64,000 nt of DNA from positions 86,015,539 to 86,079,538 of the forward strand of contig CM051519.1 of the NCBI GenBank assembly GCA_028015205.1, in the 5' to 3' direction. The DNA comes from Mytilisepta virgata. Lineage: Eukaryota; Mollusca; Bivalvia; Mytilida; Mytilidae. Shown here in pieces: positions 9,506 through 63,149 of this stretch. The notes under the pieces were generated by a model that worked only from the letters and a program-made list of their open reading frames with translations, had not been told where the DNA came from and did not search any database. Made by a program: the position numbers and the translations under genes. Positions within the stretch are counted from its first letter, which is position 1. The number at the start of each line of letters is the position of its first letter.

Positions 9506-9605
9506 NNNNNNNNNNNNNNNNNNNNNNNNNNNNNNNNNNNNNNNNNNNNNNNNNNNNNNNNNNNNNNNNNNNNNNNNNNNNNNNNNNNNNNNNNNNNNNN
9601 NNNNN
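9506..9605. other. assembly gap (100 N)
   Basis: Exactly 100 N bases interrupt the last satellite unit. The sequence to the right is not satellite. A round 100 is a common placeholder for a gap of unknown size, so the satellite may be much longer than shown and the join may not be physical. Confidence 0.99.
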
Positions 9606-16600: not shown

Positions 16601-17616
16601 AGTGTTAGGGTTTGGGTATAAATTCCAAGCAGGCGTTCAAAATTATGCAGGTCTGAGGTTAGGGACCTATAATTTTTCAACATGGGCCTTTCATTTTCAA
16701 AATTCATAAGTCTTGGGCCTTCCATTCCTGGTGCTCATTTTAAACAGATAACCTTTTACTTTTTAAGGGTGGACCTTTGATTCTGATTCATCAAAGTCCT
16801 TAGCTTGAAATACAATGTACCTGCAGGGTTCAACACTAACAGTACACTAGTCCTTAGCTGCGGAATCGTAGCTCTTTAGGTCCTTTTTTTTTTCTTTTTT
16901 TTTTTGGTCCGCAACTATCAAAAAATCAGCACAAGGACCATATGAGCTACGGTTCCGCAGCTAACTAGTCCTGTGCCTACCTATTTTCGGGGAGAACTGC
17001 AAACTATTTCACAAAGCTAGTCCTTCGGACTACTAGAACTGGACGAAGTCAGTAAGATTCCACCTTAATAATTTCAAAAGGACCATATGCATTCTCATAG
17101 GATTACATGTAGCAGAGTCAGAGACATAAAATACATGTCTCTGCACTGGGTTGTACCTTAGAAATTTTCATGTAGTAGCCAAGGACTATATTTTCAATAG
17201 AAAACTGTTATATGCTTATGCCGTAATAAACAAAATTTCAGTGGCCTACATGTAGGTCAAATTTTAGGGGCCGTGGGCTACTTGGCCCAGCTAATTTAGT
17301 AATATGACTACAGCATACCTGGATTTGCATTTGATGTCTTCGAGTCATGATCAGCACTCAAACTGGCCAAATTCTCGGAATCTAGATCTGCAGGTACATC
17401 ATTACTAATTACACTCGTGGTGTTACCGACTGCCGTTGTCATACTTGTGTTTTCCTCACCACATCCAACGCAAAACTTATAATTATGCAATTCTGTATCG
17501 CAGGTCAAACACCGTACTAACGTACTTCTAGATCTGCCACAACCTCCACAAAATTTGTGGTTGGGATTAATATTGTGGCCACACGAACTGCATTTTGCAG
17601 TTGAACTTGAAGCCAT
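10632..17616 (-). CDS. tentative multi-exon gene with N-terminal double zinc ribbon
   Basis: I do not recognise this as a named family. Exon 1 (17319-17616) begins MASSSTAKCSSCGH and has two CxxC...CxxC ribbons (CSSCG-x9-CGGCG and CLTCD-x8-CVGCG), followed by a Ser/Asn-rich tail. It ends at CCAG|GTATGC. Candidate exons follow at 16163-16260 (acceptor TTTTAG, donor GTAAGT, reading ...SMLAIRTHVKNEG...), at 14461-14559 (acceptor CTTTAG, donor GTACAT, 33 codons with two Trp-rich patches) and at 10632-10742 (acceptor TTTCAG, donor GTATTT, 37 codons, basic and helix-like). The phases agree: exon 1 leaves one base, exon 2 supplies two, and the later joins are phase 0. No terminal exon was found, and exons may be missing between 10.7 and 14.4 kb. 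The 10.6-kb piece alone also resembles the Cys-rich tail of some LINE proteins. Zinc ribbons suggest nucleic-acid or protein binding. The gene could be cellular or transposon-derived. Confidence 0.45.
11381..11720. repeat. dispersed repeat, copy 1 of 2
   Basis: This segment (pattern 'ggcttaaaaatatc...tgctgttggccta...ggtgtctcgtattgatattataaa') matches 14741-15080 in the same orientation with many substitutions. Both copies lie in introns of the tentative zinc-ribbon gene. It is an old interspersed repeat of unknown class. Confidence 0.75.
11797..12139. mobile_element. small inserted element with 13-bp flanking duplication
   Basis: The 13-mer CACACAATTTTAT occurs at 11784-11796 and again at 12127-12139, as a target-site duplication would. 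Between them lie near-perfect inverted arms of about 40 bp, starting AAAAACAAATGG near 11837 and ending CCATTTGTTTTT at 12126. The core contains 'ccctgaagaaggccgttaggccg'-like sequence. About 40 bp on the left lies outside the inverted arms, which argues against a simple cut-and-paste MITE. A foldback or retroposed element fits better. No coding capacity. Confidence 0.65.
13089..13216. repeat. 128-bp foldback element
   Basis: GAATAAAGGACATTTTGTTTTT at the left end is matched by its reverse complement at the right end (AAAACAAAATGTCCTTTATTC), about 22 bp each. The centre is about 85 bp. It resembles a very short MITE. No target duplication was identified. Confidence 0.7.
13330..14056. mobile_element. 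727-bp MITE with TIRs and GTAAT target duplication
   Basis: The left end reads CAGTCAGGGGCACCACTTAT... and the right end is its imperfect reverse complement (...CGGCACCCCTGACTG), giving about 32 bp of terminal inverted repeat. GTAAT directly precedes the left end (13325-13329) and directly follows the right end (14057-14061), consistent with a 5-bp target-site duplication. The interior repeats the motif 'aatcacctgtttatgtgattt' in both orientations and has no coding frame. CAGGGG near the tip resembles hAT termini, but hAT elements duplicate 8 bp, so the superfamily is left open. Confidence 0.85.
14741..15080. repeat. dispersed repeat, copy 2 of 2
   Basis: Divergent direct copy of 11381-11720, sharing 'ggcttaaaatatc...tgctgttggccta...ggtgtcttgtattgatattataaa'. 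Confidence 0.75.
15349..15783. mobile_element. MITE-like element with AGGCCTAAA inverted termini
   Basis: The left end (AAGGCCTAAATAAAATTGCG...TTCGGTAAC) is matched as an imperfect inverted repeat by the right end (GTTACCGGAAACACAAAAT...TTTAGGCCT), about 30 bp per arm. The interior gives open stretches on both strands (the minus frame covers 15278-15640) with no domain content. From memory, similar sequence is abundant in mussel DNA. Confidence 0.75.
15784..16162. other. intron sequence, nothing recognised
   Basis: AT-rich sequence between candidate exons of the zinc-ribbon gene. No domain, repeat arm or RNA fold was noticed. Confidence 0.4.
16846..16969. repeat. 124-bp foldback element
   Basis: ACTAGTCCTTAGCTGCGGAA...GTAGCTC at the left is matched by GAGCTAC-GGTTCCGCAGCTAACTAGT at the right, with a two-base indel in the arms. 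The centre contains long T runs. It lies in the first intron of the tentative zinc-ribbon gene. Confidence 0.75.
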
Positions 17617-18162
17617 GATTTTCAAAATTGCAAATTGCGCCTTTTTTAAAACTGTTCCCAGCACATCTCAGGTACCAGTCAATGCTGTGGTTAAAAAGGG
17701 TTCAATAATTACTGATACCTAGTACATTAGTTTATTGTCTTTTCTCCTTAAAAATACGAAGTTTTACGTTATATAGTCACTTGAATAATATTTAAAGAGT
17801 TTATGATATATACTGGCCTTATATACATATTCACAATAATTTCGATTTTGTAGTAAGGTCAGGGTTGGATTACAGGTTTTAAGCCGATGCTTTATGTATT
17901 TATGGTCAATTAAACGCTTTCAATAATATGTTTTCGAAATGGTCATTTTAGAAATATTATGATCATGATCACAAAATAGCACGACACAATTGACGAGATG
18001 TTAAGTAAACATGCAAAAAAGGCTACATTCTATTGTCCATGTCAAATGACTAATTGCAAAGGGAAGCATCAACAAATCCTAAAAAGGACGATTGCAGATC
18101 ATTTTTTAAAATGCAACCAGATCATGGTACATTTTATATACTGTAGACTAGAGTAGAGACAA
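17617..18162. other. intergenic, possible promoter side of the zinc-ribbon gene
   Basis: This is the 5' flank of the ATG at 17616 on the minus strand. No TATA box, CpG cluster or repeat stands out. Confidence 0.3.
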
Positions 18163-20543: not shown

Positions 20544-23500
20544 GAGTCTGATGAGTTCCTATTGAGTTTTATTCCACAAATAAATAAAGAAAAGTTGGAA
20601 TCAAGTTCAGATTCAGACGAAATAAACAGTGACAACTTCGGCAATATCTCTGATGAAAATGTTGCATGTACTTTGGAAGTCAATGATGCTACACCTGTCC
20701 CATGCACATACAATAAATACATAAACATGACAAACTCAGAGACTGAGAGCTCCAGTGAGGATGAATCTAGATTTGATTTTGATATTAGTCAAGGTAAACA
20801 TGATATAGAGACATGGGATCCTGAGTTTAGTGCCAAAATGTTCAACAATAAAATTGGTGAACAGAAGCTATTTTTAGGTAGTGACAAATCAGTTTTATGT
20901 GCTATTGGAGAACGATTTGCAACTTACACAAATACAAACATATCAAAAGGAACAATGACTAAGTTATTAGAAATAGAAAAAGAAACTTTACCACAGCCTA
21001 ATTTCTTACCAAAATCCTATTATGAAGCAAAGAAACTAATACAAGAATTTCTTCTTCCAGTTCGTAAATACGATGTGTGTATAAACCACTGTGCTGTATA
21101 TAGAAACATGTCAGAGGGCAAATTATACCGTGATTTAGAGGAATGTCCTGTTTGTAACACACCAAGGTATACAGCAACAGGTCGGCCTAAGCGTCAAATT
21201 AAATACATACCTATTGGCCCAAGACTTGAAAGGATATTTGGCAATGTTAGCCTAGCAGCAATGCTACAGACAGAAATTCCTGCTTATAATGGCAATATAG
21301 CACTTAGAGATATACAAGATTCTTCTGAATTTTTAAAACTGTTTAGGAAAGATGACTACTTTGAAGGAGATACAAATGGCATAGTTATCGGTTTGGAAGC
21401 AGACGGTGTCGCACCATATCATTCTTTTAATCAAACTTATTCGTTTACCGTGGTTACTGTTCCATTTTTCAATTTAATACGTAAAGTCAGAATGTTGTTT
21501 CGAAATATTTTCGTTATCATGATAATACCTGGTGATGAGAAATCTGAGGCATCTTCTCAAGATACATACTTTGAAATTCTTGTTGATGAATTATTATATT
21601 TAACACAATACAGTTATGTAAAAGATTACCAAGGTGCTCCTATCAAATTAAAAATCAAGCTGCTTCTTTACATCCTAGACTACCCAGGATTCTGTAAAAC
21701 ATTCCATCTCTCAGGCTCTGGAGCCTTTCACGGCTGTATCTGGTGTCACATTACTGGCATCCATTGCAAACACTTATATAAAACTGTCTATTTAAGAAAT
21801 AGAAGCTACTTGGCAGAAGGTCACCAGTTAAAAGTTATCACTGGATTTCCATTAGCAACAGAAGTTGCTGATAAACCAAAGATGAGAACAGAAGAGGAGT
21901 ATTCATCTTATGCAAAGGCATTTAAAAGAGCTAAGAACAAAGCACAAGCCACAAGCATTGCAAGTGCAACAGGATGCAAGGGTCCAAGTCCTTTAACTCG
22001 TTTGCCAGGTTATAATCGTCCATTGGAATCAAACCCCGATGGGATGCATACCATTCAACGGTGCATGTTAAACATTCATAACTTAATAACAGGCAAAGAA
22101 GATTCACAAAAGGTTAGATTACAAGAAAAAGAATTCAACAGATTTCAAGAAATTTGGCCTGTGGAATACTGGAATATAGAACAAGTTAGACCTAAGAACC
22201 CAAAGAAAAGGAAGTCTAATCAACCTGTATCAAATACTCAGTCAGCCTTAACACAAGAAGATGAAAAAGTTGTATCTTACACAAAACTGCCGCATCCACC
22301 TTATGTTATCAAAGATATTTCTTTGTGCAATGACAGATTTGGTAAACTAAGGTTTCCATTTGGAGCAGCCATTAAAAAATCACCAATATTTTCTACAACC
22401 ACAGCTTTAAAATCGCATGATTGGAAGGAGTTGGCATGTAGGGGAATTTTAAAATACTGTCTTAGAAACCAGTTAGGATTATCTCAAGAGCAGACCCTCT
22501 TTCAGTTTTATGACTGCCTGGCTAGATTGTTTGCAGAAGAACACCAAATTAATGATTTGGATAAGTTGGAAGAAGATCTTAACACTGTGTTAGCATTAAT
22601 AGAAAGAAACTTTCCAGTTTCAATACAGGTATTTGTCAGTATTACTGTGAATATGATTTTGAACACTCAACATGTGCAATCCTACACTCATGAAAAGAAA
22701 CAATGGACAATTAAATGCTGATGTTTACCGACCATTCCTTTGCATTTTTTAAACAGCAGTTATAAAAGTTTCAGAAAAATTATCACCAGTAGCACAGCTC
22801 GTCCTTCATACTCATTGTGATACTGGTGATAATTTCTGTCTCAGACTTTACATTTTTAATTTGCAGTTGTTCAAAACACACACAGACACACATATATATA
22901 TATATATCAGTCTTCACGATAGAAATTTTTTGCCCGTAGGCCTGGATCTTCTTTTTCAAAAGTTTTAAAATAGAATGCATTGACCTGTAATTTTTTTACA
23001 GGTTCAAAGGTATTTGTTCAAGACTGATATATATGTGTGTGTGTAGGTCAAAACTTACACAAGGAATAATACAGATAAAGTAAATGAAGAATGCTTCTCT
23101 GCAAATATGTATTCAAATAATTAGGTTTACATGGTATACGTAGCAACGTCCATCACACAAAATCCAACCTGTTTCAAGGGGTAATGTCATTGTTATATGC
23201 AATGTAGTTATGGCCGCTAACAGCGACATTACCCTGAAGATACATGGGGCATTGAAACCAGTTGAATTTTGTGTGAAGGACTTTGCTACATATACCATGT
23301 ATACCTAATTTTTTGAATATATATTTGCAGAGAAGCATTCTTCATTTAATTCACATGTGAAGCCCTTTTCTGGATTAACCTTCAGATATAGCTTTTATGT
23401 CGAGGTCAGATAAAGCATAAAATACACAGTGAATTGCAATGCAGTTTAGTTGCAATGTACAAGACATGACAGGATTAGAAATAATTTACATCTTGGATTA

Positions 23501-30359: not shown

Positions 30360-31690
30360 ACTTTAACAATTTCAGTCTGAAAATTGGAACCCTGAATCAA
30401 ATTTAAAAATTGAAAACCTGATTGCACATCTACACACAGTGAAGAGCAATATTATACACAAATGAATCCACTGAAACAAAAAAATGAATGAGTATTTCCA
30501 GAGACAAAGCAAAATTGGCAATTTCACCATTTAAGGTGCCAAAATTTGATCCCTTAATAGATTTTCAAAATTAAAAACCTTTTCGCATATCTACAGATGG
30601 ATGGATGAATTATTGTTTAACGTCCAGTGGTAACCAGGTGCATATCAGGACGAGAACATGTTGATATCATAATGAATATGATCCCTGCTTTGTACTAGAC
30701 CGACACGCTAAGTTTTTAAGGATTTTTAATGTGCTAGCTCATGAGGTAACTGTCCGCAGGAAGACATATCACCTCACTCGGACACATTATACTGACTCCG
30801 AGCCGACCAGTCTTTGCTCTTACTCCTAGATGCCGCGTGCTTGGCGGAGAAGCAGCAAATACCAATTTTAATGTCTTTGGTTTGACCCGGCCGGGGATCG
30901 AACCCGCGACGTTCCGCACTCGGGGCGAGCACGCTACCACGAGACCACCGAGGCGGTCCATATCTACAGAAAATAAAGAACAATATTATATATATACAAA
31001 TAAATTTGTTAAATCTACATGAAAAATGAAAGAGGAGTTTAAGTCACAAGCTTAAATTCACTGTTTCCGAAATACAACCTCTGTTGGCCACAAGTTGTCA
31101 AAATCAAAATTCTAAAACTTTATTGCGCATCTACATACAGTATGTGACAATATGGTATAGAAATTAAATGCATGACGTGAAAAATGAATGAGCAGTTTAG
31201 GTCACAAGCTTAAATTCTAATTTTCGAAATTCGACCCATGTGAGCCCCAATTTTTAAAAATCAAAATTCCAAAACCTCATTGTTCATCTATATACAGTAT
31301 GCGATAATATTGTATAGAAATTAAAGCATAAAACGAAAAATGTATGAGGAGTTTAGGTCACAAGCTTAAACTTCCAGTTTTTGAAATTGGACCCATGTGG
31401 ACCCCAATTTTTAAAAATCAAAATTCGAACACCTCATTGCCCATCTACATACAGTATGTGATAATACTGTATAGAAATTAAATGCATAAAATGAGAGATG
31501 AATGAGAAGTTTAGGTCACAAGTTTAAATTTCCAATTTTCGAAATTCGACCCCTGTGGCCCCTATTTTTGAAAATGAAAATTCTAAAACCGTATTTCGCA
31601 TCTCCATCCAGTTTGTAACAATACTGTATAGAAATTAAATGCATGAAGTTAAAAATGAACGAGGAGTTCTGGAGACAAGATTAACGGACG
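30360..31690 (+). repeat. tandem array of about 158 bp, interrupted by a SINE
   Basis: The landmark 'catctacatacagtatg' and variants falls near 30427, 30585, 31124, 31285, 31443 and 31600. Each is followed by 'agaaattaaatgcat...aatgaatgag...gtcacaagcttaaattc'. Removing the SINE at 30598-30958 restores the period between 30585 and 31124. Confidence 0.85.
30598..30958 (-). mobile_element. tRNA-headed SINE, full length, with 12-bp target duplication
   Basis: On the minus strand the 5' end (30958) starts GGACCGCCTCGGTGG. It carries a tRNA-like head with an A-box region at about 30931-30950 and a B box GGTTCGATCC at 30895-30904, so it would be transcribed by RNA polymerase III. The 3' end has 'tctcgtcctgatatgcacc...ggacgttaaacaataattcatc' and ends in a short ATCC run. 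CATATCTACAGA flanks both sides (30586-30597 and 30959-30970) as target-site duplication. Short relatives of its tail occur at 35026-35095 and 60945-61000. Open frames on either strand here are shadows of the SINE. Confidence 0.93.
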
Positions 31691-32129
31691 GCCATCCGGA
31701 CCTATTACAATTATCCCCGAACTCCATTTGAAGATTCAATTCAAATCCAGCTAATTATACAAGATAATTGTAATTTCATTCATATTTATTACTTGCATAA
31801 TAATGCAAAATGTAAAGGCACTGCAAATGAACAATCATATATACAAAAAAAAAAAACAAAAAAAAACAGACAGGTCAGTACAAGTAGTTATACAATCAAG
31901 TTCGAATAACTTTATTTTTCATATTGAAGATATGGTAGGCCATGACAAGGACAATAAAATATTCCTGAAATTGAAAACTTTTTTTAAAATAATTTTTATT
32001 TAAGAAATGCAAGTCCACTGTCAAAAATGTAAGGAGTGTCCCAACTCTAGGAGTAAAATAAAATAAGAAGGGGGAACTTTAACCAAATGTCAATCACGTG
32101 ACTTTCGTAGGCGGCCATGACGTATCCAG
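31691..32129. other. no gene; left flank of the Harbinger element
   Basis: AT-rich with A runs near 31846-31870. It becomes GC-richer from about 32085 at the edge of the element. Confidence 0.4.
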
Positions 32130-32149
32130 GGGCCCGCTTGATTCACTGT
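32130..32149 (+). repeat. left terminal inverted repeat of the Harbinger element
   Basis: Twenty bases, perfectly inverted at 41049-41068. Several CACTGT/ACAGTG words follow within 80 bp and could be transposase-binding sites. Confidence 0.88.
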
Positions 32150-32266
32150 CCAGGTTGTCCGTCACAGTGATGTACAACAATCGAACGCCGCAGAACAGTG
32201 TTCCGGAACTGTCCGGTCTGTACCGACTCGGGAGGTGGTGTGGCCGGCACAATCTACAATTTCAAG

Positions 32267-35200
32267 ATGGCGTCGATAGAAACAGAAGCAGCTGATCAAA
32301 CGTAATATTATGTGTTTAGCAACATATGGTTGGATGCAAAGTTATTTACCTTGCATAAATATTTTATTCATTGACCAAGCGATTTGTAATAAATTTTAAA
32401 ATGATGGATTCGACCATTTTTTTAGAGGAAATCCCGATTTTTCACCGGATAGGTTAGCCATAGACATTTCATTAAAAAAAAATACCATTACCTGGCTACT
32501 TATACATTGTAAATGTGAATTTTTGACCAAAAAAAAACCCACTTGCTTATACCAATACCTTGGAACAACCAATTTAAGCCATTTAAAGGTTGGACATGTA
32601 ACTGTTAGTGTTAAACTGATTCTAGCTCTAGGGCAGTGTAGCTAGCTGGGTTGTGCATGGGGTACCCTCATGGCCTCATTAAGCTAAATGGTAAACAAGA
32701 TTATCAAATCATTATTTTTAATGTTTTCTTGGCTTATTTTTCAGTTGTAACAAGCTATGACAAACAAATATGTACGGATATAATGCATCTGAACATTCCT
32801 ATTTAAGGTAGTTAAAAAGGTCGCTGTCAGAAGAATGCTAATTAAATGCTATTATTTAAAGGCCATTCAAGGACTATTGTAAATTGCACGATTCAAACAC
32901 TCTGTTTTGAAATTGTTCAGTGAAATCCAAAATACATCATGTACATATATATATACATGTTTACTTACTTATATACAGTGCCGTATGGTACGTCTGCGCA
33001 CCTTCTATGTCTGCGCTTTACATTGACGTTCAGTGTAAAGCACAGACATAGAAGTGACTTACATTGACGTTCAGTGTAAAGCACAGACATACAAGTTACA
33101 TCTATGTCTGCGCTTTACACTGAACGTCATTGTAAAACGCAGACATAGAAGGTGCGCAGACTTACAATATTTGACTGTATAATTATATAAAACATGAGAA
33201 TGTTGTTGGTGATAATACATTGCATCATAAGAATCTGACTCTACCTATTTAAGTTTGTTAAAATTGTTCTGTTTTCATTGTAGAAACAAGAAGATACCTG
33301 TTCAGGTTGAATATGGTGGAATCGTTTATAATATACTTGTGAATGAAGACCTGCACCAAAAATTAAATTCATTAAGTAGGTATAAATGTATACACTATAC
33401 AATACGATCTTTTATTTCCAAATTTATACCCCAAGAATGATTTTAAAAAAAAAAATTCAAATTTTTCCGTATTTTTTTCCTTAGTTGGACTTAGTTTTTT
33501 TCATGATAATTTATGGTGAAGACCTACATGTATATTCCAGCAACTATAAGTTATAGGGATATGATAGTTGGTCAGTGGATACATCATGGGTAACCACAAA
33601 CGTCAGTACCAGAATTAGGTCATCTTGACCTACATTTTTCCGCATGAGTGACTTTGGTTAAATGTTTGGTGGAGGTCCATATCTCAGCATCTATAACTTA
33701 TAGTGGCATGATGATTTGTCATTGTACAGGTTATAAGTAACCAACAACATCAATACCAGAATTAGGTCATTTTGACCTACATTTTTCCTCATGAATGACT
33801 TTGGTAAAATTGATGGTGGAGGTTCATATTTCAGCAACTATAACTTCTAGTGGCATGATAGTTAGTCAGTGGATACATCATGGGTAACCACAAACGTCAG
33901 TACCAGAATTAGGTCATCTTGACCTACATTTTTCCGCATGAGTGACTTTGGTTAAATTTTTTGTGGAGGTCCATATCTCAGCATCTATAACTTATTGTGG
34001 CATGATGATTTTTCATTGTGCAGGTTATAAGTAACCAACATCAATACCAGAATTAGGTCATTTTGACTTACATTTTTCCACATGAGTGACTTTGGTTAAA
34101 TTTTTTCAGACAAACATTTCTTACTAACCACAGGGACAGCAGGCGAGACACAGGGATGCGGGCAACCTTACGTACTTTTTACTTTAATGTGTAGAAATCA
34201 TTTACATGTTTTTGGCATTTCATATTAAAATTTGTTTTAAATAACTTTTTTTCTGATTACAGATATGGCAGAACGCAATTCTACTAGGAATAGCTTGATT
34301 GAATTAGTAAAAAGACTTAAAACAAAAGGTAAGATTTAACTTTTTTAAAAGTTATTTTATCTGACAGTGTACATAGTCTGGTTTTCAGAAGCAGAAATTC
34401 ATTCATTGCTTCAAAATAATCAAGTCTAAAATTGATGACATACTTCACATTTCATATACAACGGATGACTAGAATATTTTTATTGAAAATGTGGAAAGGT
34501 GTTCTAATTTGAAAAAAGCAATTATGTGTCCTTGAATTACACCTGTAGGCTGTAGATGGATTTTGAAATTAGCACATGCTTCTACCTACTTGAAAATATG
34601 ATAACCATTTGCACAAGAATGTTGAGCATTATTATCTGATTATTAACAGTTTTGCACAAAAATTAAATATTGTCGTTTCACATCAATTTTTGAGTAATAA
34701 AATTTTATATCTCAGCAACAGTATGTGTGTCTAGGATAAGTTTGAAGTTGTTTGGCAGATGATTTGCTTTGATGTAATGTATCTTGTAACTGATTTGAAG
34801 ACCTGTGGGACATCATCTTCATATTCAGTATTGTTAAGGGCAAATCTTTTAATTACTTTCCAGACATGGTTAAGGAGGATTCTGATGATGAGGAGACATT
34901 AACATATTGCAACAAATGCAAGCAAATGGTTAAAGGGGGACATAGATGTGATCAGGGTAAGTGATTACTAAAGTAAAATGAAATTTATGACTATTCTAGA
35001 GGACTAGTCTAGGTAGATCATTGATTGATTGATTGTTTAGAGTTTAACGTCCACTCAACAATATTTCAGTACATGTGTACATCAGGACGAGAAAAAGTTA
35101 AATAATTAAAAATTTATCAGAAGGGTGAAAAAAAGGAATGTTGGGCAACTGGAACAACGACTTAAGGCTGCCACATGAAAAAGGGGGACAGAAAATTTAG

Positions 35201-36598
35201 CCTAGTGTAATGGGTCTGCTTTTTTTCGAAAAATATAGAAGCAAACTCTGTACTGCATGAAGCATGGGAGTTTCTCCACACAGTTTATCTATAATGGTTC
35301 ATGGTTAGGCTTTCAGTATTATGACCTGACCCCTGCAACGACAGGGCATTCCCCTATTTACAACTTTGGGCATGCTAGGGCAGTTTTGTAGATGGAACCC
35401 CTGAAAACTGATTCAGGTTCCTTGGAGGTAGATTACAATTAACATGAAATCAACAGTGTGCCCCCATCACCATAAACTTAAATCTTCTCATTAATTACAT
35501 TATCTTTTTTTTTCATGAAATGAAGGATTTACAGTTGTATGCAATAGTCATGTTTACCAATATGCTGAAAATAACTATTGAAATAAGCATGTGGCTAAGA
35601 ATTGTCAAACATGTAAAATTAAGCCTCTGTTATTAATGTAGTCAATTACAATGTATTTTTTAGCATCAAAGTCTATGGAAAGTCAGACTGATACTGCAGA
35701 AAATCCAACCCAGAATGAAGGGAAACAAGAAGGTACAGGTAGCTTTCAACCTGTTTCATGCATATGGTTAAAGGGTCCCACTCTTGAACTCGTTGAGCAT
35801 TATAATAGTTTCAAAGACAAAATTAACTCAGGATTAATTACCAAAAAGGCTGTATAGGATCAAATTTCTTGTAAGATGAAATCAAGTGGTCATGATTTCA
35901 CTCCTGACCAAGTACAAGGAAGGTGGAAGTCCCTTTGTCGTGCTTATAAAAATGTCAAAGATCATAACAACAAAAGTGGAAATAATCCAAAACACTACGA
36001 GTATGAAAAAGAGTTGGATAAAGTATTTGGTGATGATCCTCTGATTGTACCAAAATTAGTGTCTAGTTCTCTTAAGAGAAAAAAACTGTCAATAGATGAT
36101 TTAGAAAATAAAGGTCAAGTACATGTAAATGCCGATACATCTGATAATGAGGAAAACTCTGATTCAGAGCTGAAAAGGTTGAAAAAAAGTGATAATTCCA
36201 CACCAAGTGATAAGCCATCTTCTAGTGGTAAATCATCTACTAGTAAACCATCATCTGTTTTGGATTTCCTGAAGGATTTTGTAAAACAGCAGGGAGAAAA
36301 AAGTGATAAAGAAGCAGAGCGTAGAGAAAAAATGCACAATGAAAAAATGGAAGCAATGAACAAATTAATTCAAGCAATAGCTTCAAAGAAATAATTTTTT
36401 ATCAAGTGATGATCCATTAATGCTTACAATTTTGTTTTAATAGATCCAGAGTGTGTGGTATGTATGGATGAAATTGCAGACACAGTTCTTAGCAAGTGTG
36501 GACATTTAGCCTCCTGTTTGTCATGTAGCAGAAAAATTAAAAAGTGTCCAATATGTCGTTCTAAAATAACAGACCGCATAAAAATTTATAAATGTTAG
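32267..36598 (+). CDS. RING-finger protein encoded inside the Harbinger element
   Basis: Model: join(32267..32301, 33284..33375, 34263..34328, 34864..34956, 35664..35738, 36444..36598), 171 aa. Every join keeps phase and uses GT-AG sites (donors GTAATA, GTAGGT, GTAAGA, GTAAGT, GTAGCT; acceptors ending TAG or CAG). Exon 1 starts MASIETEAADQT. Exon 2 gives a beta-rich stretch (KKIPVQVEYGGIVYNILV). Exon 4 is acidic with a small CNKC...GGHRC cluster. Exon 6 is a C3HC4 RING (CVVC...CGH...CLSC...CPIC) at the extreme C-terminus, as in many small ubiquitin E3 ligases. AATAAA at 36886 may be the poly(A) signal. Introns 2-5 share phase 1, so exon 4 can join exon 6 directly, and exon 5 can instead read on into the Myb-like region. 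Function as an E3 ligase is inferred from the RING only. Confidence 0.75.
32992..33161. repeat. 170-bp palindromic foldback nested in intron 1
   Basis: GTCTGCGCACCTTCTATGTC at the left is perfectly inverted at the right end. The interior repeats 'gctttacactgaacgtca' several times in both orientations, so almost the whole element can fold. Confidence 0.85.
33539..34130 (+). repeat. tandem array of about 148 bp in alternating A-B-A-B order
   Basis: Four units start near 33539, 33690, 33836 and 33985. Units 1 and 3 share 'ggtcagtggatacatcatgg'-type text, while units 2 and 4 share 'gtcattgt-caggttataag'. The array therefore grew by duplication of a roughly 297-bp dimer. It lies in intron 2 of the RING gene. 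Confidence 0.88.
35026..35095 (-). repeat. SINE/LINE 3'-tail fragment
   Basis: 'ttgattgattgtttagagtttaacgtcca...catcaggacgag' matches the 3' end of the SINE at 30598-30958 in the same orientation, but no tRNA-like head follows. It is probably a fragment or a different family sharing the tail. Confidence 0.6.
35739..36394 (+). pseudogene. Myb/SANT-like Harbinger accessory region with one nonsense codon
   Basis: It continues in frame from exon 5 of the RING gene if the donor at 35739 is not used. It reads a helix-turn-helix-like region with ...IWLKGPTLELVEHY..., then TAG at 35855-35857, then in the same frame DQISCKM...QVQGRWKSLCRAYKN, the WK-x-LCR-x-YK pattern of Myb_DNA-bind_4/MADF-like accessory proteins. 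A Lys/Ser-rich linker and a charged C-terminal helix follow, to TAA at 36394. The TAG sits where the family usually has Trp, so a single TGG-to-TAG change would explain it. In Harbinger elements this protein helps bring transposase to the nucleus and the ends. Alternatives are true decay, a polymorphic stop, a sequencing error, or a separate start at 35876. Confidence 0.7.
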
Positions 36599-37134
36599 GA
36601 TATTGCAGTGGCTGCATACTAGGGAGGAGCTAATTTTGTGACATTTGTTTTTGCAAATCAAGTATTTTAGTTCATAGTTTACCAAAAGATTGATGCTGTT
36701 TTCTTGTTATGTTTTTGCTGTATTTTTTCAAGTTTATTTTAAAAAGTAATTAACTCAGGTTGAGTGTTTATAATACTTATATCCATAATTTACCTCAAAG
36801 ATTGGTGCTTTTTTTATTGTTGAGATATTTTTTGTTATATGTTACAAGTTGAGTGCACACAATACATTTACTTTATTTGATGATGAATAAAAAAAATATT
36901 CATTGGTTTTCATTGTTGAGCTACTTTATTCCTCAGAAATTTGTTGGGCACACCTTTTCAATTGTCTTCATACACTTGTGACATGAATTGTAACAGAGAT
37001 TTACCAGTAATTGCAGGTCTAGTCACAGGTCACATTGCAGGGTGCTGGCTGTTTTCTGTTGCAATGTTTTAAATTGTGACATGTAAAGTTTAGCAGGTTG
37101 CATCTAGTACACTTATTCCACATCTCATTTTCTT

Positions 37135-37330
37135 AAATATAAAAAATGGGAGATGTGGTATGATTGTTTATGAGACAGCCATCCACAAAAAACAGACAAA
37201 TTATAACTTCTACAGGTCGCATTACGGCCTTCAACAATGGATCATGATCCATACCATAAAGCAAGCTGTAAAAAGCCCTGAAAAATACAGAATGTGGCAA
37301 TATTCGTGACATACAACAATCGACCTAGTC
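37135..37330 (+). repeat. mussel-type dispersed repeat nested in the Harbinger element
   Basis: 'gggagatgtggtatgattg...gagacagccatccac...gcattacggccttcaacaatgg...aaaaagccctgaaa' is a sentence I associate with very abundant repeats in Mytilus DNA. Confidence 0.7.
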
Positions 37331-37679
37331 TATTCAAACAACAAAAAACAAATAACAATAAACAGGCAAACAACAACAACCACTGGACTACAGGTTCCTG
37401 GCTTGGAACAGGCACATAAAATATGTGGCGGGGTTAGCATGAAATACATGAAAAAGGTTCCAAGATTGTGTAATCTGAAGCTCAAACTGAATTTTCCCCA
37501 AAAAAGTAAAAACAAAACAATGAACTGGGATGATCAATCTGCATATCAAGGAAGAAAAGACAAAAAACATACCAGACTTGAAGGATTTGGCCATCTCAAA
37601 AGAAATGGTGGGGTTAAGCCAAAATTTATAATATATATCTCACTTTAATATCCATATCTGATCTTCTTGCTCCGTTGCT

Positions 37680-38500
37680 ACATATTTTTATGCCCCACTG
37701 ACAAATGTGGATGGAGCATATTGTATCACCCTTCGTACATCAGTAAACATCCATCTGACATCCATTATGTTCTAATAGATTCACCATTGGGAGTACATAC
37801 CATACATGGAAACCTTGAGTCAGTTTCACCTACATTCTATGCTCCTGTGACTGTTAAATTTTGGGTTAAATTCAGTTTGTATGAACTACACCTTATATGG
37901 CTGTTCAAATGTACCAGTATAATCATTAGAGTGGTAAAGTCCAAATGTGCAGGTCTTGGGTGACTGACCTACATTATATGCTCCATTGACTTTGGTTAAA
38001 TTTTGCGTTTAGCTCCATTTCTCTAGAACTATATCCGTCATGGCTGTCCAACTGTACCAGTATATTCATCTAAGGATACAGTAGAAGTTCTTATTTACTT
38101 GGTCACTTTGACCTACATTTTACGCTCCAGTGACTTTAAATTTTAGTTTAGCTCCACTTCTGGGCAAGTATACACATTATGATTGTGAAACTTTACCAGT
38201 TTATTCATCTGAAGGAGTAAAGTCCAGAATGGTGGGACTTTAGTTTTGTCACTTTGATCCACATTTTATGCTACATTGACAGTTTTGCATTTCGATCCAT
38301 TTTTGGACGAATATATATAAAGAATGATTGTCAAACTTTGCCGTAAATGTTGTGCTACTTTGACAGTTTTGCATTTAGCTCCATTTTTGGGCAAGTATAT
38401 ATATAATATGATTGTCAAACTTTGCCAGTATATTTATCTTTAGAAGTAGTCTACTTTGACCTACATTCAATGCTACAGAGACTTTGATTAAATTTAAGAT
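37680..38500 (+). repeat. degenerate tandem array, unit about 145 bp
   Basis: 'tgacctacatt-tatgctcc-ttgacttt' recurs near 37827, 37968, 38109, 38257 and 38461, followed by 'agctccatttctgggcaagtat' and 'ccagtatattcatct'. It lies between the two convergent genes of the element. Confidence 0.8.
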
Positions 38501-39102
38501 CGATAATAAAAATAAAGGGCAGGGCATTCCTGTCTTACAGACACACATATTGCATTTGTGGTATTTGGTTGGTATTACCTCATAAAGACAAATTATAATT
38601 TTTTCCTCTATTTGGTGTCAAGTAAAGTAAAACACAAAAGTTGTGAATCTTTTTATTGTAAGAGATTTGTTTGAAACATACTCATCATAATAATTATTGA
38701 AAGGTTTTTGAATCCGTGGGTGAAATTCTCAGAAAAGTCCTGCTTTCATTCCTTTATACCCTGGTATCACTAGTATAAAAAGACAAAATTTTTGGGATAG
38801 GTATTCCTGTCTGCCTGCATAAGTCCTCTTAAACAATCTGATGAATTTAGGTAAAAACCCATTTTGAAATTAAATTATCAACAGTAAAGACAGGAAATTA
38901 ATGTTTTTTTCACTTTCAATATATTTTTATATATAAACTTTAAAAGCACTTATAAAGTCATATAACACTGATTAACAATATTTTTCTTTTCCTACAGAAA
39001 AATTAGTTTAAAAAAAGTATTTCTTCAATGCATGTAATTCATGAACATACTAAATAAGGAAAACTAATAGAATGTATTTGTAGGTAGAAAAAAGTAAATA
39101 GG

Positions 39103-40974
39103 TTAATGTCTGGCAAGTAATCTTGCAATGCTGTTACGTTTAACAACACCTTCATTTTCAGCTTCTTGTAACTGTAAATTTAAATGATTCAAATGAAGAT
39201 TTTCATCAGCTTCTGCAAAGTCGTCAATCCTATCAAGACTAAAAAGGCAAATATTGTGAACGACACAGCAGCAGTTAATTATGTGAATAGCTGTCTCAAC
39301 TGACACTGTTTCCAGATTAAGTAAACGCCTGAACCTGCCTTTAAGCAATCCAAAAGCCCTTTCTATGACTACCCTATTTTTAGAATGCAAGTGGTTAAAG
39401 TTTTTTTGTTCATTTGTTAAGTTCCCTGTGTCTCTATACGGAGTCAGGAGCCATCTGCGCAACGGGTATGCACCATCTGCAATAACATGTTTACCATCAC
39501 AGAGTACTAAGCCCTGGTCCCAAAAGTCTGATTGTCGCAAAACCCTAGCATCATGGCAACTTCCTGGAAAACCAATATTGCAATACATAAATTCCATGTC
39601 TGCATTGCATATGGCTTGGAGATGGATAGAATGAAATTTTTTACGATTTATGTATGACTGAGGATGATCTTTAGGTGCACGTATTTTAATATGGGTGTCA
39701 TCAAGGGATCCAACAATTCCCGGAAAATTATTTCTTTCACTAAATTTAGATGTAACATTCTCCATCTGTTGACCTCTAGGCCAGCAAATCACTTTTGGTA
39801 GAACATTGTTAATAAGAGCTATAATAATGCGATTTCTGGATAAAATAATCGATGATTCCGAAACCCCAAATCTGTCGGCTATTCTAATAATTGGATCCTG
39901 GCCTCCAAGGTACCACAATGTGATCATCAACTGTTTCCTTACAGATATTGGGGTCTTTCCACCATAACCTCTTTTTGATAGCTCCGGGGATTCTTCAAGA
40001 TATGACAATAAAATCTCAAATGTGTTTAAAGACATCCTGAACAGTCTTCTGAATTGTTCTTCATTAAATTGTGGTACTACATTCTCCACATAACCATATA
40101 TTTTAGGTCTTGGATTTGGCAGTCTGCAAAATACAAATAATAAAAGACTGAATATCTTGAAATTTATAGTTCAAATATGTGAAAAAACAAAAGATATTAG
40201 GAATAAAAAATACATGGATAACATTACATACAATGTACGTACTAAAATTGAACATTGTATATGCTAATAGAACTGACAAGAAAAATGTTGATTTTGGCTA
40301 AGCCAACAAAATGATGTATAAACATCAGCATGATGAGCTCTTGAAATTTTATAACAAAAATGGTATTAAGAACAGACCATTTGATTTTCGGGGGGGGGGG
40401 GGGGGGGGTCCTGGGAGTGGGATTTTACCTTAAGCTGAACATTTTTTCCACCTGCAATGCGGGCTAGATTATTTTTTTCCTACACTAACAATGCAAGAAA
40501 TTTTTTTCTTTTTTTTTTAATTGCAAAAATTGAAGTCAGATTACCTTTTTCAAACCACGGTGCTGGTCAGAAGGTTTTTTGGACAAAAATAAGGACAAGG
40601 AAATTTTTTCTAAAAAAATCCCAGCCCCCTCCCTTCCTCGTATTTTGACTAGAGTACAACATAAGTAGGAGGGGAGTTACCATTTAAATAAAGTTACATA
40701 CAGCATAAATTACATTAATAACATACCTTGAGGACTGGTATGTAGATGGATGTGGAATTATTACAATAGTGTATGTTATACAACAGTTGAAGTAAATGCT
40801 TTATTTGTTTATTATTAAATTTTTCACAAATCAATGAGGATTGCATGTAAAAAAAACCTACAGTGCAATGCAAGATGCCACTACAACCAAAACTGCCGTG
40901 TCATCTTCCTCACATTCCTCATCATTTTCCAAAAACAAGTCCGTCGATATAGCTGTTGTAACATCGACATCCAT
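39103..40974 (-). CDS. HARBI1-like: HARBI1-like PIF/Harbinger transposase (DDE nuclease), two exons
   Basis: CDS is complement(join(39103..40123, 40862..40974)), 377 aa. Exon 1 starts at ATG 40974 (MDVDVTTAIS...), is acidic, and ends GCACT|GTAGGT. Exon 2 begins after TTTTGCAG; the joined codon is Leu, giving ...IALLPNPRPKIYGYVENVVPQF. The DDE_4 domain shows RRLFRMS, SKRGYGG, the helix-turn-helix ADRFGVSESS, catalytic Asp in GSLDDTHI, catalytic Asp in VIADGAYPL, and catalytic Glu in RVVIERAFGLLKGRFRRL. No stop or frameshift interrupts it. The enzyme would cut at the TIRs of this element and its relatives in the nucleus. The length fits HARBI1 proteins. Its ATG lies about 75 bp inside the right TIR, so the promoter must be in or near the terminus. 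Confidence 0.93.
40390..40408 (+). other. 19-base poly-G run
   Basis: An uninterrupted G run lies in the single intron of the HARBI1-like gene. It could form a G-quadruplex and is a likely place for length errors. Confidence 0.9.
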
Positions 40975-41048
40975 TTTGAATTTGTGACTTCCTGTTCCCA
41001 CGCGTGCGATTCGATTGTCCAGAACAGTGTAACTGGAACAAGTAATGC

Positions 41049-41068
41049 ACAGTGAATCAAGCGGGCCC
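41049..41068 (-). repeat. right terminal inverted repeat of the Harbinger element
   Basis: Reverse complement of 32130-32149 without mismatch. Read inward on the minus strand, the next 60 bp contain ACACTGTTCTGG and ACAATCGAA, which have counterparts at the left end. Confidence 0.88.
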
Positions 41069-43185
41069 GAGATCTTATCAGCAGTAGGGGCAAATAATTG
41101 GAGGAAGATGAATTGGTATTAGTAAAATAGCATCGATTATTGACTCTGCGTTTAAAAGATGAATAACTTACCTCAAAGAGCTTCACCTTCAACATTATCA
41201 AAACACACGTATAGTTTGTTATGTTCTTATTCGACAATCTCAACCGAACATAAAACATTTATCAAATAAAAACAAACACTTGTTTCTAGGCATAGCTCTG
41301 CCACATGTGCAGTGCAGTTTTATTTTATTATAATAAAATATACTCTGATGCCACCATGGAGGTCCACCAATTTACAAAAGAAAAACCAATATAAGTACAA
41401 GAATTCATAAATTATACAACCACAGGGTGGGAGGGTATACATATCGAAAACTGAACTGCACTGTACTGAAGTGGAGAGTCGAATGACCAATACCCCTTCT
41501 TAACTTGAAAACGAAAATGTTTCCCGCTTAATTATTAGCTCGTGCTAAACGTGCTATTTATCAAATCCTAGCCACCTATCGAACCATTTAAATTACATCC
41601 AATCATAGTTAAAATCGTAATAGTCATAATAAAGAGTACACACGTGTGCAACTGTTTACAAATATATACACGTGGACCTGTCAAAAACAGCGGATTGCTC
41701 AACTTTGACAAATGCATTTGTTGTCAAAAATAGCAACGATTATTACGTCACCGGTGCCACGGAGAACACAAGAGGGTCGAAATTAAGACACGGGGCGATA
41801 AATAGACTACCAATCAAATATAAAAATGCATAAAATGAGGATTAATTTATTTAGCCGAGGATGGGGACTAACTATGGAAGCATTTCTTATCAAAAGTTGC
41901 CATAGATTGTGTTATTTGCAAATTATACAAAAATCTATAAATAGGTGTCGCCGTATATAATAAGTTTTCAAAGTGGTTTTATTGATTTTGACTTTTGGTG
42001 TTCAGTGTACATGAAATTTATATTTATTATCGTTTCATTTCATATTTCATCTTAATGACATATCTTTTACTTTGACGAATGACGTCACATACGCATGTTA
42101 TAAACATTCACTATAATGCATGAATTTAACATTTACATTTTTATATTATTATATTTGCAGTTAATAAAACAAAGTGCAGGACATTGTTACATATTTGTTG
42201 ATTATTATGCCCTGGTATGTTGCTATAGTTCGTCTGTGGCATTTGAAAATAGGCCAGTAACAACTTGAATTAAACAAATACAAGAGATACTTTAAGCAAT
42301 AAGTGTTAAACTTTAAAATACTACAATAATATTTTTTGTTAAAGATGTGCCCCGTAATAAAATTTATTTTATGGAAACACAATTTATGATATTTTATTGC
42401 ATCCAGCGTGTGACCATTCTTCAGGATTTTGGTTGTTATTATCTTTCATGTTCAGGCAGTTATGTCGTATGTGGTTCCATAAAAGGAAGTAGATGAAACT
42501 TTAATACCAAGCAAAGGACACGGCGTAATGAAACAATATATTCCTTCTAAGGCGGCAAAGTTGCGATAAAGTTCCGGATGCTTTGCATTAAACATATAAT
42601 GATGAATTAATAAGCACAACAATAAAAAATCAAAACAATTAAAATAAAAAGGTAACCAAACTCAGCTAAGGGTTACCTCTGCATCAAAAGGAAGAGCCTT
42701 GGAAATTTCTGATAATTTTTGTCAAATTTTGAACTGAAAATTTAAAGGCATTTGAGAAATAAATCATGCCAGGACAAAAGTTCTGGCTATTGGGCTGATA
42801 ATGCCCTTTTTATGAAGAAAGGCTTTTTTTATGTGTCGCGTACAGGGACAAGGAGGGAAAGAAACAAGTACGTTCGTTAAGTGCATTTTTTGCCGCTCAG
42901 AAGTTGCAACGTTTAGTAAATGCTTACAACAAAAACGTGGGTGCAGTAGATGCCACGGTCTATATTATGAAGGCTTAAGGCGGACAACGCAAGAACAAAA
43001 AAAAACTTGGAAAAAGATCGTCATACATTTTTACAACAGAATTCTCCACAATGCATATATATTGAAAAAAAAATCATTCCACTGAAATGCCCGTAAAATT
43101 CGCGCCATGATTTATACAGGGGATTTGGGGGGAGGCGGAGGTGAATCCTTGCCCGAGACAAGATACGCTGATGTTGATTCTTTAC
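41069..43185. other. no gene recognised
   Basis: Mostly AT-rich intergenic DNA. A plus-strand stretch at 42831-43085 has a CIFC...CSRC pair and a GC-richer patch but no recognised domain. Confidence 0.4.
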
Positions 43186-55143: not shown

Positions 55144-57930
55144 TTAATAGAAGATTACTATATTTATAAAGTTGGTTTGATTAAATGTGCCCTTTATAAC
55201 CCCTAAAATCATGTTTTCTTCAGAGATAGTCAGATCGTGTAAAATACCTGTCGTCTTGAAAATCTCTTCTATTTCTTTTATGATTATTTTCGATAAGTTA
55301 CATCTAAAAAATAAATGTTCCAAGTTTTCAAAATTATTTCTATGCATTTCCCATCAGATAAATTCATTTTTTGCAAACGACATTGCGTGTATATAATATT
55401 ATGAACACATTTCCATTGAAATTCTTTAACTTTACTGTGAATTTGGACTTGTTTTAAAAAGGACCATATTTCATGCCATTCTATTTCCCGGTTAAAAACC
55501 TGCTCCCACTTGATTTGGCATTTCGGCAGCGTTTTAATTGTTAAGCAGTCTCTAATGTTTTTTATACTGATTACCCTTGTTTATTCACAAAATGCAAATC
55601 ACTATCTATCTGTAACCTGAAATGGTTTTTATCAGGTACAGTCAGATTTCCCTTTAATATATTTAGAAATTTGTTGGGAATAGCTTTTTTAAGTCTAGAG
55701 TATTCCGAAATACAGTTTCGTTTATCTCTTAACAAATTGAAAATAATATCGCAGTTCTTAAAATTTTTATTTTCTGCATCCCAGATATCATTTAAAGTCC
55801 TTATATTACTTTTCAAAAAAGACGGGAATAAAAGGGTTTTATTCTTAAATTTAATATCAGGATTACAAAATAATCTTTGTAGTAACACATCTTGAACTGT
55901 GCATGATTTCTGTATTATACGGTACAATTTTGCCCAAGCCTTAATTACTATTTGGTAAAATTTTGGTAACTTATTCATCTGAAGATGCTGTGTGTGCGCA
56001 CATTTTGTTATAAATAAATATTCATTATGTTTTTCATCAAATTTTCTGAACCAATATTTACCTATGGCATTCCAGCTCTCTAAAGGTTCGTGAATGATTC
56101 TATATAACAGCTTAATTTGTTTACTCTCAATTAAAGTCTCTAAATTTATCATACCAATACCCCCCTTTTCAGTTTCTAAGCAACATACATTTCTTTCTAT
56201 TTGATTTGGCCCCCCTCCTCCCCCGTCCCAAATAAAATCCCATATTATAGTCGTAATTTCTTTTGAGTACCTGTCTGGTATGCCTCGCATTTCAATTTCA
56301 TATAAACCGCACAAGGAAATTAGTTTACTTTTTACTATAAGAGTTTTTCCGCTACATACGTGAGATTTCTACTTTTCCAAACATGAATGCAGTTTTTTAT
56401 TCTTTCGATAATAGATTGCCATATATTATCAGTATCGATTTCATACCCATGGTGAAAGTTTTGACGTTATTTGTAACCCACGAAATTTTATTGTATTTTG
56501 GTTTTCTTCTCCTTGCATTGCCAATATACAAACCTTTTGTTTTTTTCGAAGTTTATTTTTGAACCAGAAGCGTTTTCGTATAACTCTAATATTGAAAAGG
56601 AATTTTTAATAGATTGTTCATCATGTGTATCGTCCGCGAACATACAGTTTTGTTTCAATACATTCACCATTCCTTTCCCCTGGTAGCTTTATGCCCTTTA
56701 TACTATTGTCCCCCCTGATAGCGCAAGCCATTGGTTCTGCTTGTAGAATGTACAAGAGAGGCGCAATTGGACATCCCTGCCTACAAGAACGTGTTATTTT
56801 AAAACATTTTGAAATAAAACCATTTGTTTTTATACAGGTTTCAGCATGTTTAAATAGCATTTGGATCCACCCTCTAAATTTCTCTCCAAAAATTCCGCTA
56901 ACACATAATCTACCCAACCCTATTCTATTCTATCAAAAGCTTTTTGTTGATCTAAGAAAATTAAAATAGCTTCATCATCTTCTGCTTCTATATAGTCAAT
57001 TATGTCTTGTATCAATCGATTTGCTTCACTTATATTTCGACCTTTTACAAACCCTTTTTGGGTCTGTATGTATCAATTTTGGTAAAACCGATTTTAGTCT
57101 TTCGACTAAAATTTTTGCAATTATTTTATAATCAGTATTAAGAAGAGTTAGAGGGCACCAGTTACGAATATTTTCTCGTTCACCCCCTTTGTATAATAAA
57201 GTTAATACTCCTTTATATTGGGATTTACTTAGTTCATTTTTTTCGAAAATGTTCTCTAAAAGTCTAAAGAATTCATCTTTGATTGTATCCCAAAAAGTAC
57301 ATAAAATTCCGATATTATAGCGACTTCGCCAGGCGATTTGTTTTGTTTGAGAACTTTTAATATTTTTTCAACTTCGTCTTGTGTAATTTCAGATTCGAGG
57401 AAGTTTTTATCTTCGTTATTCAATTTATTTTTAATGAATTGAGTCAAGGTTGTTGCACTTCCCATATCCCAACCCTCAGAGGTAAATAGATTTGAGTAAA
57501 ATTTTACTTGTTCTTCAATAATTGAGTCAATGTCGTATTTATATTGCCCGTGGGGGGTTTTAATTCTATTCCACAATTTATTTTGACCTTGTTTCTTTCC
57601 AAATTTAAGAAGAAACGTGTCGATTTCTCGACTTCTTCTACCCATTTTATCCGCGAGCGTATTTTTGTTGCCTCTGCTTGTCTTGTGTAATACTCCTTTA
57701 TTGAATGTTCAATGCTTTTCATTTTACAATGATCAGTACATGTATTTCCGTTTGAAGAATCTTTTAAATTCTCTAATGATTTTTCTAAATTTTCAATATC
57801 TTTTTTCGTATACCCTTTATTTAATTGCCTACTGACCTCCATTGTTAAACTTTTAATTTTAACCTTTGTAAGATTATATTTTCGAATCTATTTATTTCAT
57901 TTTTCCATTCTGCCCACCAAGTTTCGAAAG
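55144..57930 (-). pseudogene. broken L1/Tx1-like LINE ORF2 (reverse transcriptase) fragment
   Basis: Read from right to left on the minus strand: a linker with KWVEEVEKSTRFFLNLER (57504-57842), a YSNLFTSEGW and KSPGE block (57256-57600), NW-PLTLLNTDYKIIAKIL (about 57120), FVKGR, FLDQQKAFDRIE with the first catalytic Asp (about 56950), a CRQGCPIAPLLYIL block (56700-56800), FADDT with the catalytic Asp pair (about 56630), then a 247-codon open stretch (55571-56314) with the FIWDGG...GGIGMINLE region typical of the LINE C-terminus. Frame changes separate these blocks and TAG replaces Trp after AFDRIE. The endonuclease domain is absent. It is a dead 5'-truncated copy. Confidence 0.88.
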
Positions 57931-61576: not shown

Positions 61577-63084
61577 TTAACCTCCACCAAGTTTGTTAAT
61601 ATAGTCTGTTATATTTCGTCTATTAATGTAATCCATAAAATTGCCATCGAGAAGTCTTTTGCCATTATGAGATACCATCCAACATTCTACTTTTAAATTT
61701 GTTGCCAAATTTAATCGCCTACCAAGTGACGCTACAACCTTTCGTGGTTTTCTAGTATTACCAAATACTTTTAATTTGCCTCTGGTGCGACCATTTTTAA
61801 GAGTCTTTTTCTTCTCTAATGAAACTCTTCTGTATAAAAACTGCCCTGAAAAAAATAAACATGCATTGAAAAATATCTAAACGATTAGTGTTGACAAAAA
61901 TGTTTACGTCATTTGTTGGAAAAGTGTATAAATTCTTACGATATCACCAAATAATGGTAGAACGAGGACAGGCAGGAGAGTTGTGTTCTGTTAAGTGAAA
62001 TTTTAATTATCCTGTTGACAGTAAAGCAATAAATGCTTTCAGTAAACAACACGAGAGGATTGTAATCACAAGATATCCTTAGTTTTAATCGTAACTGTCA
62101 TGATGATAAGTCTTTATGTACTTTTAAACGCTCCTTCGTATGATCCTGTTGATCCCAAAATTCTACAATTTATACTTTATCCGTATAAATAGTATATACG
62201 GTATCTTCTATTACTCTCACTGTCCAACCGAAAAACATCATTCTTTATAATGTTTAAGTCAGCCGATGCAACAAAATCCAAATAATTCCTTCAGACTTAA
62301 AGGTTGAAATAAGTATCATGATCAAGTGAAATAGAACATTGTAATTATTGAATACCTAATTACTCAATGTTCAATAAAATATTTTTCAGAAACAAAAAAC
62401 ATACGCTTCTTAAATCAAAGCTTAGATATCTAACTTCAACCTTAACCTGAAATGCATATACTACCCTGAAGTTAGCAATCTTGGCATTTTTCTGCTGCTG
62501 CCAGGTCCTTTGTGGTTACTTTTAATTTTGTGATACCGGTTTTGGTAAGAGTACAGCCAAAACCATCTAAAGCAAAAAGCTATTGCATGGAGGAAATTCT
62601 CATTCGCTTTCACAGAACTTTTTTTCTAACAATAAAATTTGTCCGTTAATAAAAGCAAGGAAAATATATAATTGCATAAAAATATTACCTAACAATCCAT
62701 GGGTTGACTTTGAAAATCCTTTATCCTGCACTATATAAAATCCAAGGAAATCTACTTTTCCTCCACGTTTTTGAGATTTTGTTCGCATATGCCTCATCAC
62801 GAGTAACGTGATTCTGTTGGGAAACATAACAACAATCATTTCCCCTGTCCTGTCAGTCACTATTTTAGTTTTGTATGACGTCATTGCTTCTGACGACACC
62901 CATTTATGTACCTCGCCATTTAAAATCCACCTCTCCGGAGTTATACTAATATGTGTTCCTTTGCCAGAAATAACTATACTTCCTAAGTAGGTTTTTAGTT
63001 CTTGGCTTTCATTAATGTCATCTTTTCTCTTTTTTCTACTAAAAATTCTTTTGTTTGAAACTATTATTCCATTGACCACAATAC
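61577..63084 (-). CDS. ITIH-like: inter-alpha-trypsin inhibitor heavy chain-like protein, last two exons
   Basis: Exons 62689-63084 (acceptor TTTACAG, donor TTAG|GTAATA) and 61577-61845 (acceptor TTTTTTTCAG) join in phase and end with TAA at 61577-61579. Together they read about 220 residues of the ITIH C-terminal domain: VVNGIIV, TYLGSIVISG, ISITPERW, VDFLGFYIVQ, THGLLG|GQFLYRRVSL, then VECWMVSHNGKRLLDG-NFMDYI. In ITIH proteins this domain follows VIT and von Willebrand A domains. The proteins are secreted and bind hyaluronan or other matrix molecules. The 5' exons lie to the right of the window, since nothing upstream within it fits. The basic run KNGRTRGKLKVFGNTRKPRK is unlike the vertebrate copies I remember. 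Codons and splice sites look intact. Confidence 0.88.
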
Positions 63085-63149
63085 CTGTAAAGTATTATAA
63101 GACAAATTCTGATTAACTTAAGAAGGACCTCATGCTTTAATAGACAAAA

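Follow-up and report, generated by a model that had tools for sequence, protein, structure and literature searches.

Can a DNA transposon carry a RING-finger exon in its own helper gene and make use of it? This question is raised by an element of 8,939 bp at positions 32130-41068 of the window, the 64-kb stretch of DNA that was analysed as a whole (region 31800-42500 inspected; single copy). According to our analysis, the locus is best explained as a DNA transposon of autonomous type that belongs to the PIF/Harbinger-related (PHIS) superfamily and comes closest to its NuwaI branch; the helper gene would have two alternative 3' ends, with the RING form serving as a feedback brake on transposition. 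We assign this reading, class assignment included, a probability of about 0.45. The features of the element are collected in Table 1.

Table 1. Coordinates of the features of the element, in window positions and ordered from left to right.
Feature	Position	Strand	Remarks
Left terminal inverted repeat GGGCCCGCTTGATTCACTGT	32130-32149	+	CAG directly before (32127-32129)
Subterminal motif ACAATCGAA, left	32177-32185	+	47 bases inside the left end
Helper exon 1, contains ATG	32267-32301	+	gene model
Imperfect palindrome, intron 1	32972-33181	+	two 89-nt arms, 88% complementary
Helper exon 2	33284-33375	+	gene model; donor GTAGGT
Helper exon 3	34263-34328	+	gene model, codon usage
Helper exon 4, small Cys/His motif (C-x2-C...H-x-C)	34864-34956	+	aligns with the Cys/His stretch preceding the Pecten P0121 Myb domain
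Helper exon 5	35664-36394	+	predicted short form ends at 35738 or 35732; long form enters Myb/SANT ORF, stop TAA 36392-36394
RING exon (C3HC4, IAP type)	36444-36598	+	phase-1 acceptor; stop TAG 36596-36598
Polyadenylation-like signal AATAAA	36886-36891	+	288 bases past the RING stop
Transposase exon 2, HARBI1-like DDE	39103-40123	-	377 aa open together with exon 1
Transposase exon 1 (predicted)	40862-40974	-	joins exon 2
Subterminal motif ACAATCGAA, right partner	41010-41018	-	50 bases inside the right end
Right terminal inverted repeat	41049-41068	-	20/20 identical to left; GAG directly after (41069-41071)

The element is delimited by perfect 20-bp terminal inverted repeats that start with GGGCCC and thus fall within the NuwaI range of 12-61 bp with a GGG start. 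In DNA of 33% G+C, the repeat GGGCCCGCTTGATTCACTGT has two inverted matches in the window, versus none in any of 100 shuffled versions of it. The best plain local alignment paired two A+T-rich segments instead (31973-32007 and 38988-39023); this pair was attributed to chance, and the perfect G+C-rich pair was preferred. The two ends also share the motif ACAATCGAA, whose symmetrical placement is observed and which is possibly a binding site for the helper or the transposase. The start codons of both genes (32267 on the plus and 40974 on the minus strand) lie in alike subterminal sequence, TTCAAxATGG...TCGAT, as if both ends descended from a common ancestor longer than the terminal repeat. The perfect ends enclose all exons of the RING-encoding gene, in agreement with the initial annotation, which had placed this gene between terminal repeats. 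The same annotation had put its ATG 118 bp from the left end, a distance that holds from the inner edge of the repeat but becomes 137 bp from the outer edge.

NuwaI elements are described as having CWG target duplications, terminal repeats usually starting with GGG, a DDE transposase and a Myb/SANT protein, and they occur in animal hosts including one mollusc (PMC4482050; Han et al., 2015). Duplications of TWA are given for PIF/Harbinger proper (PMC4482050). The flanks found here, CAG on the left and GAG on the right, are not TWA, and they differ from each other by one mismatch in the 3-bp target duplication. Together with the GGG ends they appear to fit the NuwaI (CWG) branch better than the classical TWA Harbinger, the duplication being imperfect. 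Searches of the rest of the 64-kb window retrieved no further copy of the element, its Myb region or its RING (tblastn, E ≤ 1; blastn, E ≤ 1e-6). Viral contigs yielded no matches to the transposase, the transposase alignment, the RING or the terminal repeat, nor did prokaryote genome contigs to the transposase alignment or the terminal repeat; neither collection was aimed at animals, so that these blanks are expected and carry no weight on absence in molluscs.

Just outside the left end of the element lies a tandem array of a 157-bp unit (4.1 copies, 31019-31668). A second DNA transposon, EnSpm/CACTA-like, is marked by a 725-aa ORF on the plus strand (20544-22721) matching Transposase_21 (tnp2, E 2.5e-19). 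Overlapping ORFs at 55571-57887 on the minus strand resemble LINE reverse-transcriptase remains by eye; for the three that were scanned, Pfam showed nothing of retroelement type at E ≤ 0.01. The ORF at 62600-63094 on the minus strand matches the inter-alpha-trypsin inhibitor heavy chain C-terminus (ITI_HC_C, E 8.5e-18) and is part of a host-type gene. A 119-aa ORF on the minus strand (17308-17667) matches a double zinc ribbon (DZR, E 1.1e-7), and an assembly gap of 100 N occupies 9506-9605.

The minus-strand gene of the element is an open transposase frame. Its exon 2 ORF matches DDE_Tnp_4 in a Pfam scan (E 3.6e-38), and the candidate catalytic residues D157, D207, D232 and E270 fall in alignment columns that are invariant across 12 proteins. 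A protein search identified relatives among 373 of 2,090 candidates at E ≤ 0.001. Within the best 120 of these 373, the named proteins are HARBI1-like and the named organisms include many bivalves (Pecten, Ylistrum, Mytilus, Crassostrea, Saccostrea) at identities of up to 61%; one further match among the same 120 reaches 76%. These matches, taken with the base composition (33% G+C), suggest a bivalve host. Compared with the PDB, the transposase had no sequence match at E ≤ 0.01. A Pfam scan of transposase exon 2 found no RING, which sits in the helper gene on the opposite strand.

Exons 1 to 5 of this helper gene have the phases 0-2-1-1-1 and run in frame into the Myb/SANT ORF that ends at 36394. 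The Myb-like region, in frame with exon 5, thus belongs to the same predicted transcription unit, as had been proposed. The nearest helper relative found is P0121 of Pecten maximus ('trihelix transcription factor GT-1-like isoform X1'), which has the Myb part and, in the annotated isoform X1 to which this comparison is confined, no RING. It aligns with 35% identity over 272 columns that begin at the exon 4 Cys/His motif, take in the Myb domain and reach a C-terminal helix. Because the alignment extends across all of them, we regard exons 4 and 5 and the Myb ORF as one gene. The domain is recognized as Myb_DNA-bind_4 (Pfam, E 7.5e-10 with X at the stop codon described below and 3.7e-7 for the portion after it), and its match in the PDB is the plant protein GT-1 (E 9.8e-5). 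In this copy, a TAG at 35855-35857 interrupts the Myb domain, and since the Myb ORF holds a stop, the copy must be at least partly decayed.

Codon usage supports exons 1 to 5 jointly as coding, with a score higher than in any of 4,000 open null windows (null of 60 codons, query of 120); the bias is strongest in exon 4, and for exon 2 alone 10% of the null windows score as high. On a simple weight matrix for splice sites, the donors of exons 3 and 4 are strong, that of exon 1 is ordinary (34% of all GTs in the window score equally well) and the exon-5 acceptor is weak (41% of AGs score equally well). The palindrome in intron 1 is probably a nested repeat and may be a foldback element. Intron 2 contains a tandem array of a 147-bp unit (3.5 copies, 33590-34105).

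The RING exon follows the Myb ORF. Its match to PF13920 (Pfam scan, E 6.5e-16) rules out a chance resemblance and confirms that the predicted product ends in a C3HC4 RING. The best solved relatives are BIRC3 (cIAP2; E 1.1e-10), BIRC2 and XIAP, followed by MUL1, MGRN1 and MYLIP. All eight zinc ligands are intact, with a spacing of 2-11-1-3-2-6-2 that is identical in BIRC3 and XIAP, and the domain also has a CPICR motif and an IAP-like C-terminal tail. Residues that matter for E2 binding and for activation are retained, among them the hydrophobic one that separates the first cysteines, the CPIC-R motif and the aromatic tail at the C-terminus. A structure model of the RING ORF from the single sequence was poor (mean pLDDT 51.4, all helix) and was set aside.

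A stop at 36410-36412 closes the RING frame upstream, and ahead of the second cysteine of the RING this frame contains no ATG. The RING can therefore be made only as a spliced 3' exon and would otherwise be unused. The six exons of the initial annotation have compatible phases: joining exons 1 to 4, 35664-35738 and 36444-36598 yields a predicted protein of exactly 171 aa that skips the Myb region. According to the weight matrix, the donor at 35738, which is in phase, is the best-scoring one between 35664 and 36443; an alternative in-phase donor after 35732 gives a predicted 169 aa, and a second in-phase acceptor would start the RING exon at 36450. The RING acceptor is in phase with introns 2 to 5 and has a middling score, 15% of AGs being as good. 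RING codon usage is indistinguishable from open noise (13% of open null windows are as high). At E ≤ 1, a Pfam scan of the predicted 169-aa product found no BIR domain. No relative of the N-terminus plus RING product was found among 14 candidates in the protein search, which depends on shared 5-residue words and similar length, so that lone RING exons predicted as proteins of about 60 aa are missed. With N-terminus, Myb and RING placed end to end, 2 of 2,571 candidates were related, namely the Myb relative without a RING and an unrelated RING protein.

We posit that this arrangement may represent one gene with two 3' ends. The long form would be the Myb/SANT helper, which would bind the element ends and the transposase. 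In the short form, exon 5 would be spliced over the Myb region into the IAP-type RING exon, giving a small protein in which the helper N-terminus is kept and a ubiquitin-ligase domain replaces the DNA-binding domain. The common N-terminus would then bring the RING to the helper or the transposase, leading to ubiquitylation and limiting transposition. In PIF/Harbinger elements the Myb partner is reported to bind both the ends and the nuclease (PMC4671723), and a RING product sharing its N-terminus could join the same complex and cause its degradation. A feedback brake would be the most likely function; the ends, the open transposase frame, the Myb and RING domains, the phases and the exon coding bias are seen in the sequence, whereas splicing, expression, ligase activity and target are inferred. 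That the product is a working ligase directed at the transposase or at host silencing, as the initial annotation had suggested, is likewise an inference. A broader claim would be that a Harbinger/NuwaI lineage has built a ubiquitin ligase into its own machinery. Alternative splicing would then give either the Myb partner or a RING protein of IAP type that has its N-terminus in common with that partner and tags the transposase, the helper or host repressors binding either of them for breakdown, one gene being activator and brake; we consider this version rather unlikely. The preferred explanation is favoured by the perfect repeats around the whole element, the open DDE transposase with its candidate catalytic residues, the Myb domain in frame with exon 5 and homologous to P0121, the RING with its ligand spacing, CPICR motif and tail, the in-phase RING acceptor, the top-scoring in-phase donor at 35738, the AATAAA and a RING frame that has no start of its own. 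Some weak splice sites, the uninformative RING codons, the stopped Myb ORF, the imperfect target duplication, the single copy and the lack of an N-terminus plus RING relative among the 14 candidates count against this explanation.

The RING exon most likely derives from a host IAP-like gene, and the strongest rival to the feedback brake takes it to be a passenger. For the hard clam, 159 IAP genes are reported, with tandem duplication, retroposition and domain shuffling as their sources; a single terminal exon encodes the RING of clam IAPs, and DNA transposons are enriched around these genes (PMC7831173). The likeness to IAPs and the exon layout of the clam genes make exon capture plausible, and a terminal RING exon of IAP type within a transposon gene is the pattern that capture from a family of this sort would produce. 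On the rival view, the capture would have been a single event, confined to this copy or to a small lineage, and the exon would lie unused in the 3' untranslated region of the transcript that encodes Myb. The IAP type of the RING, the exon structure and transposon enrichment reported for clam IAPs (PMC7831173), the Pecten relative without a RING, the middling splice acceptor and the decayed Myb frame are consistent with such a passenger, the chance of which we put at about a third. Against a passenger speak the intact state of the eight zinc ligands, of the CPIC-R motif and of the tail, the acceptor in phase with the upstream gene (a chance of about 1 in 3) and the polyadenylation-like signal downstream of the RING.

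Two further explanations appear improbable. The usual product could be a single protein with Myb followed by RING, spliced from a donor inside the Myb ORF, which would turn the helper itself into a DNA-bound ubiquitin ligase. This is suggested by GTG|GTAAAT at 36228, a phase-1 site and the second-best donor between 35664 and 36443, and joining 36227 to 36444 preserves the frame; the joined frame, however, includes the TAG (one internal stop) and loses the conserved helix at the C-terminus, which is part of the alignment with Pecten P0121. A RING exon that is part of another gene, or of an insertion that landed in the element after its arrival, would agree with the great length (8.9 kb versus a reported NuwaI mean of about 4.5 kb; PMC4482050) and with the other repeats in the element, but long direct or inverted repeats of the kind that would flank an insertion do not stand out around 36394-36600, and the RING, which connects in phase, cannot be initiated on its own.

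The anatomy of the element is real and unusual, and would represent a new variant among known transposons, provided that the RING exon is used. Should the RING form be produced and kept by selection, the transposon would have its own protein-breakdown switch, situated outside the transposase and operated through alternative splicing of the helper gene, and self-limitation of cut-and-paste elements could be tested on a two-gene system. If the exon was merely captured, the locus would offer a direct view of a DNA transposon picking up the terminal RING exon of IAPs, a gene family expanded by domain shuffling in bivalves.

The statement that no example had been described stands for Harbinger elements, for which none with a RING was found in open-licence papers (a set that does not cover Repbase entries), but not for mobile elements in general, since RING fingers are known from Chapaev (PMC4411706) and from Gypsy- and Pao-type retroelements (PMC3630058). 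The element resembles NuwaI in its short, GGG-starting terminal repeats, DDE transposase and Myb/SANT protein, animal host and left flank CAG, which conforms to CWG (PMC4482050). It differs in that the right flank GAG breaks the duplication, in being about twice the mean length, and in its RING, which the available text on NuwaI does not mention (PMC4482050). With PIF/Harbinger proper, as described for Harbinger-Snek, it shares a transposase and a Myb-like protein, both of which are needed there, whereas its flanks are not TWA and it has the extra RING exon (PMC8437027). Isis-like/Osvaldo Gypsy elements and a Pao element also encode a RING, but these are retroelements that carry it in the gag or polyprotein (PMC3630058). 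Chapaev is a DNA transposon with a RING finger, and the RING of RAG1 is a ubiquitin ligase; in Chapaev, however, the RING is part of the transposase, behind the Chapa domain, whereas here it is IAP-like and lies in the helper gene (PMC4411706). With the RINGs of the IAPs BIRC2/3 and XIAP the exon shares the zinc spacing, the CPIC motif, the C-terminal tail and the single terminal exon, while the predicted product is without a BIR domain and the likeness in kind is confined to 51 residues.
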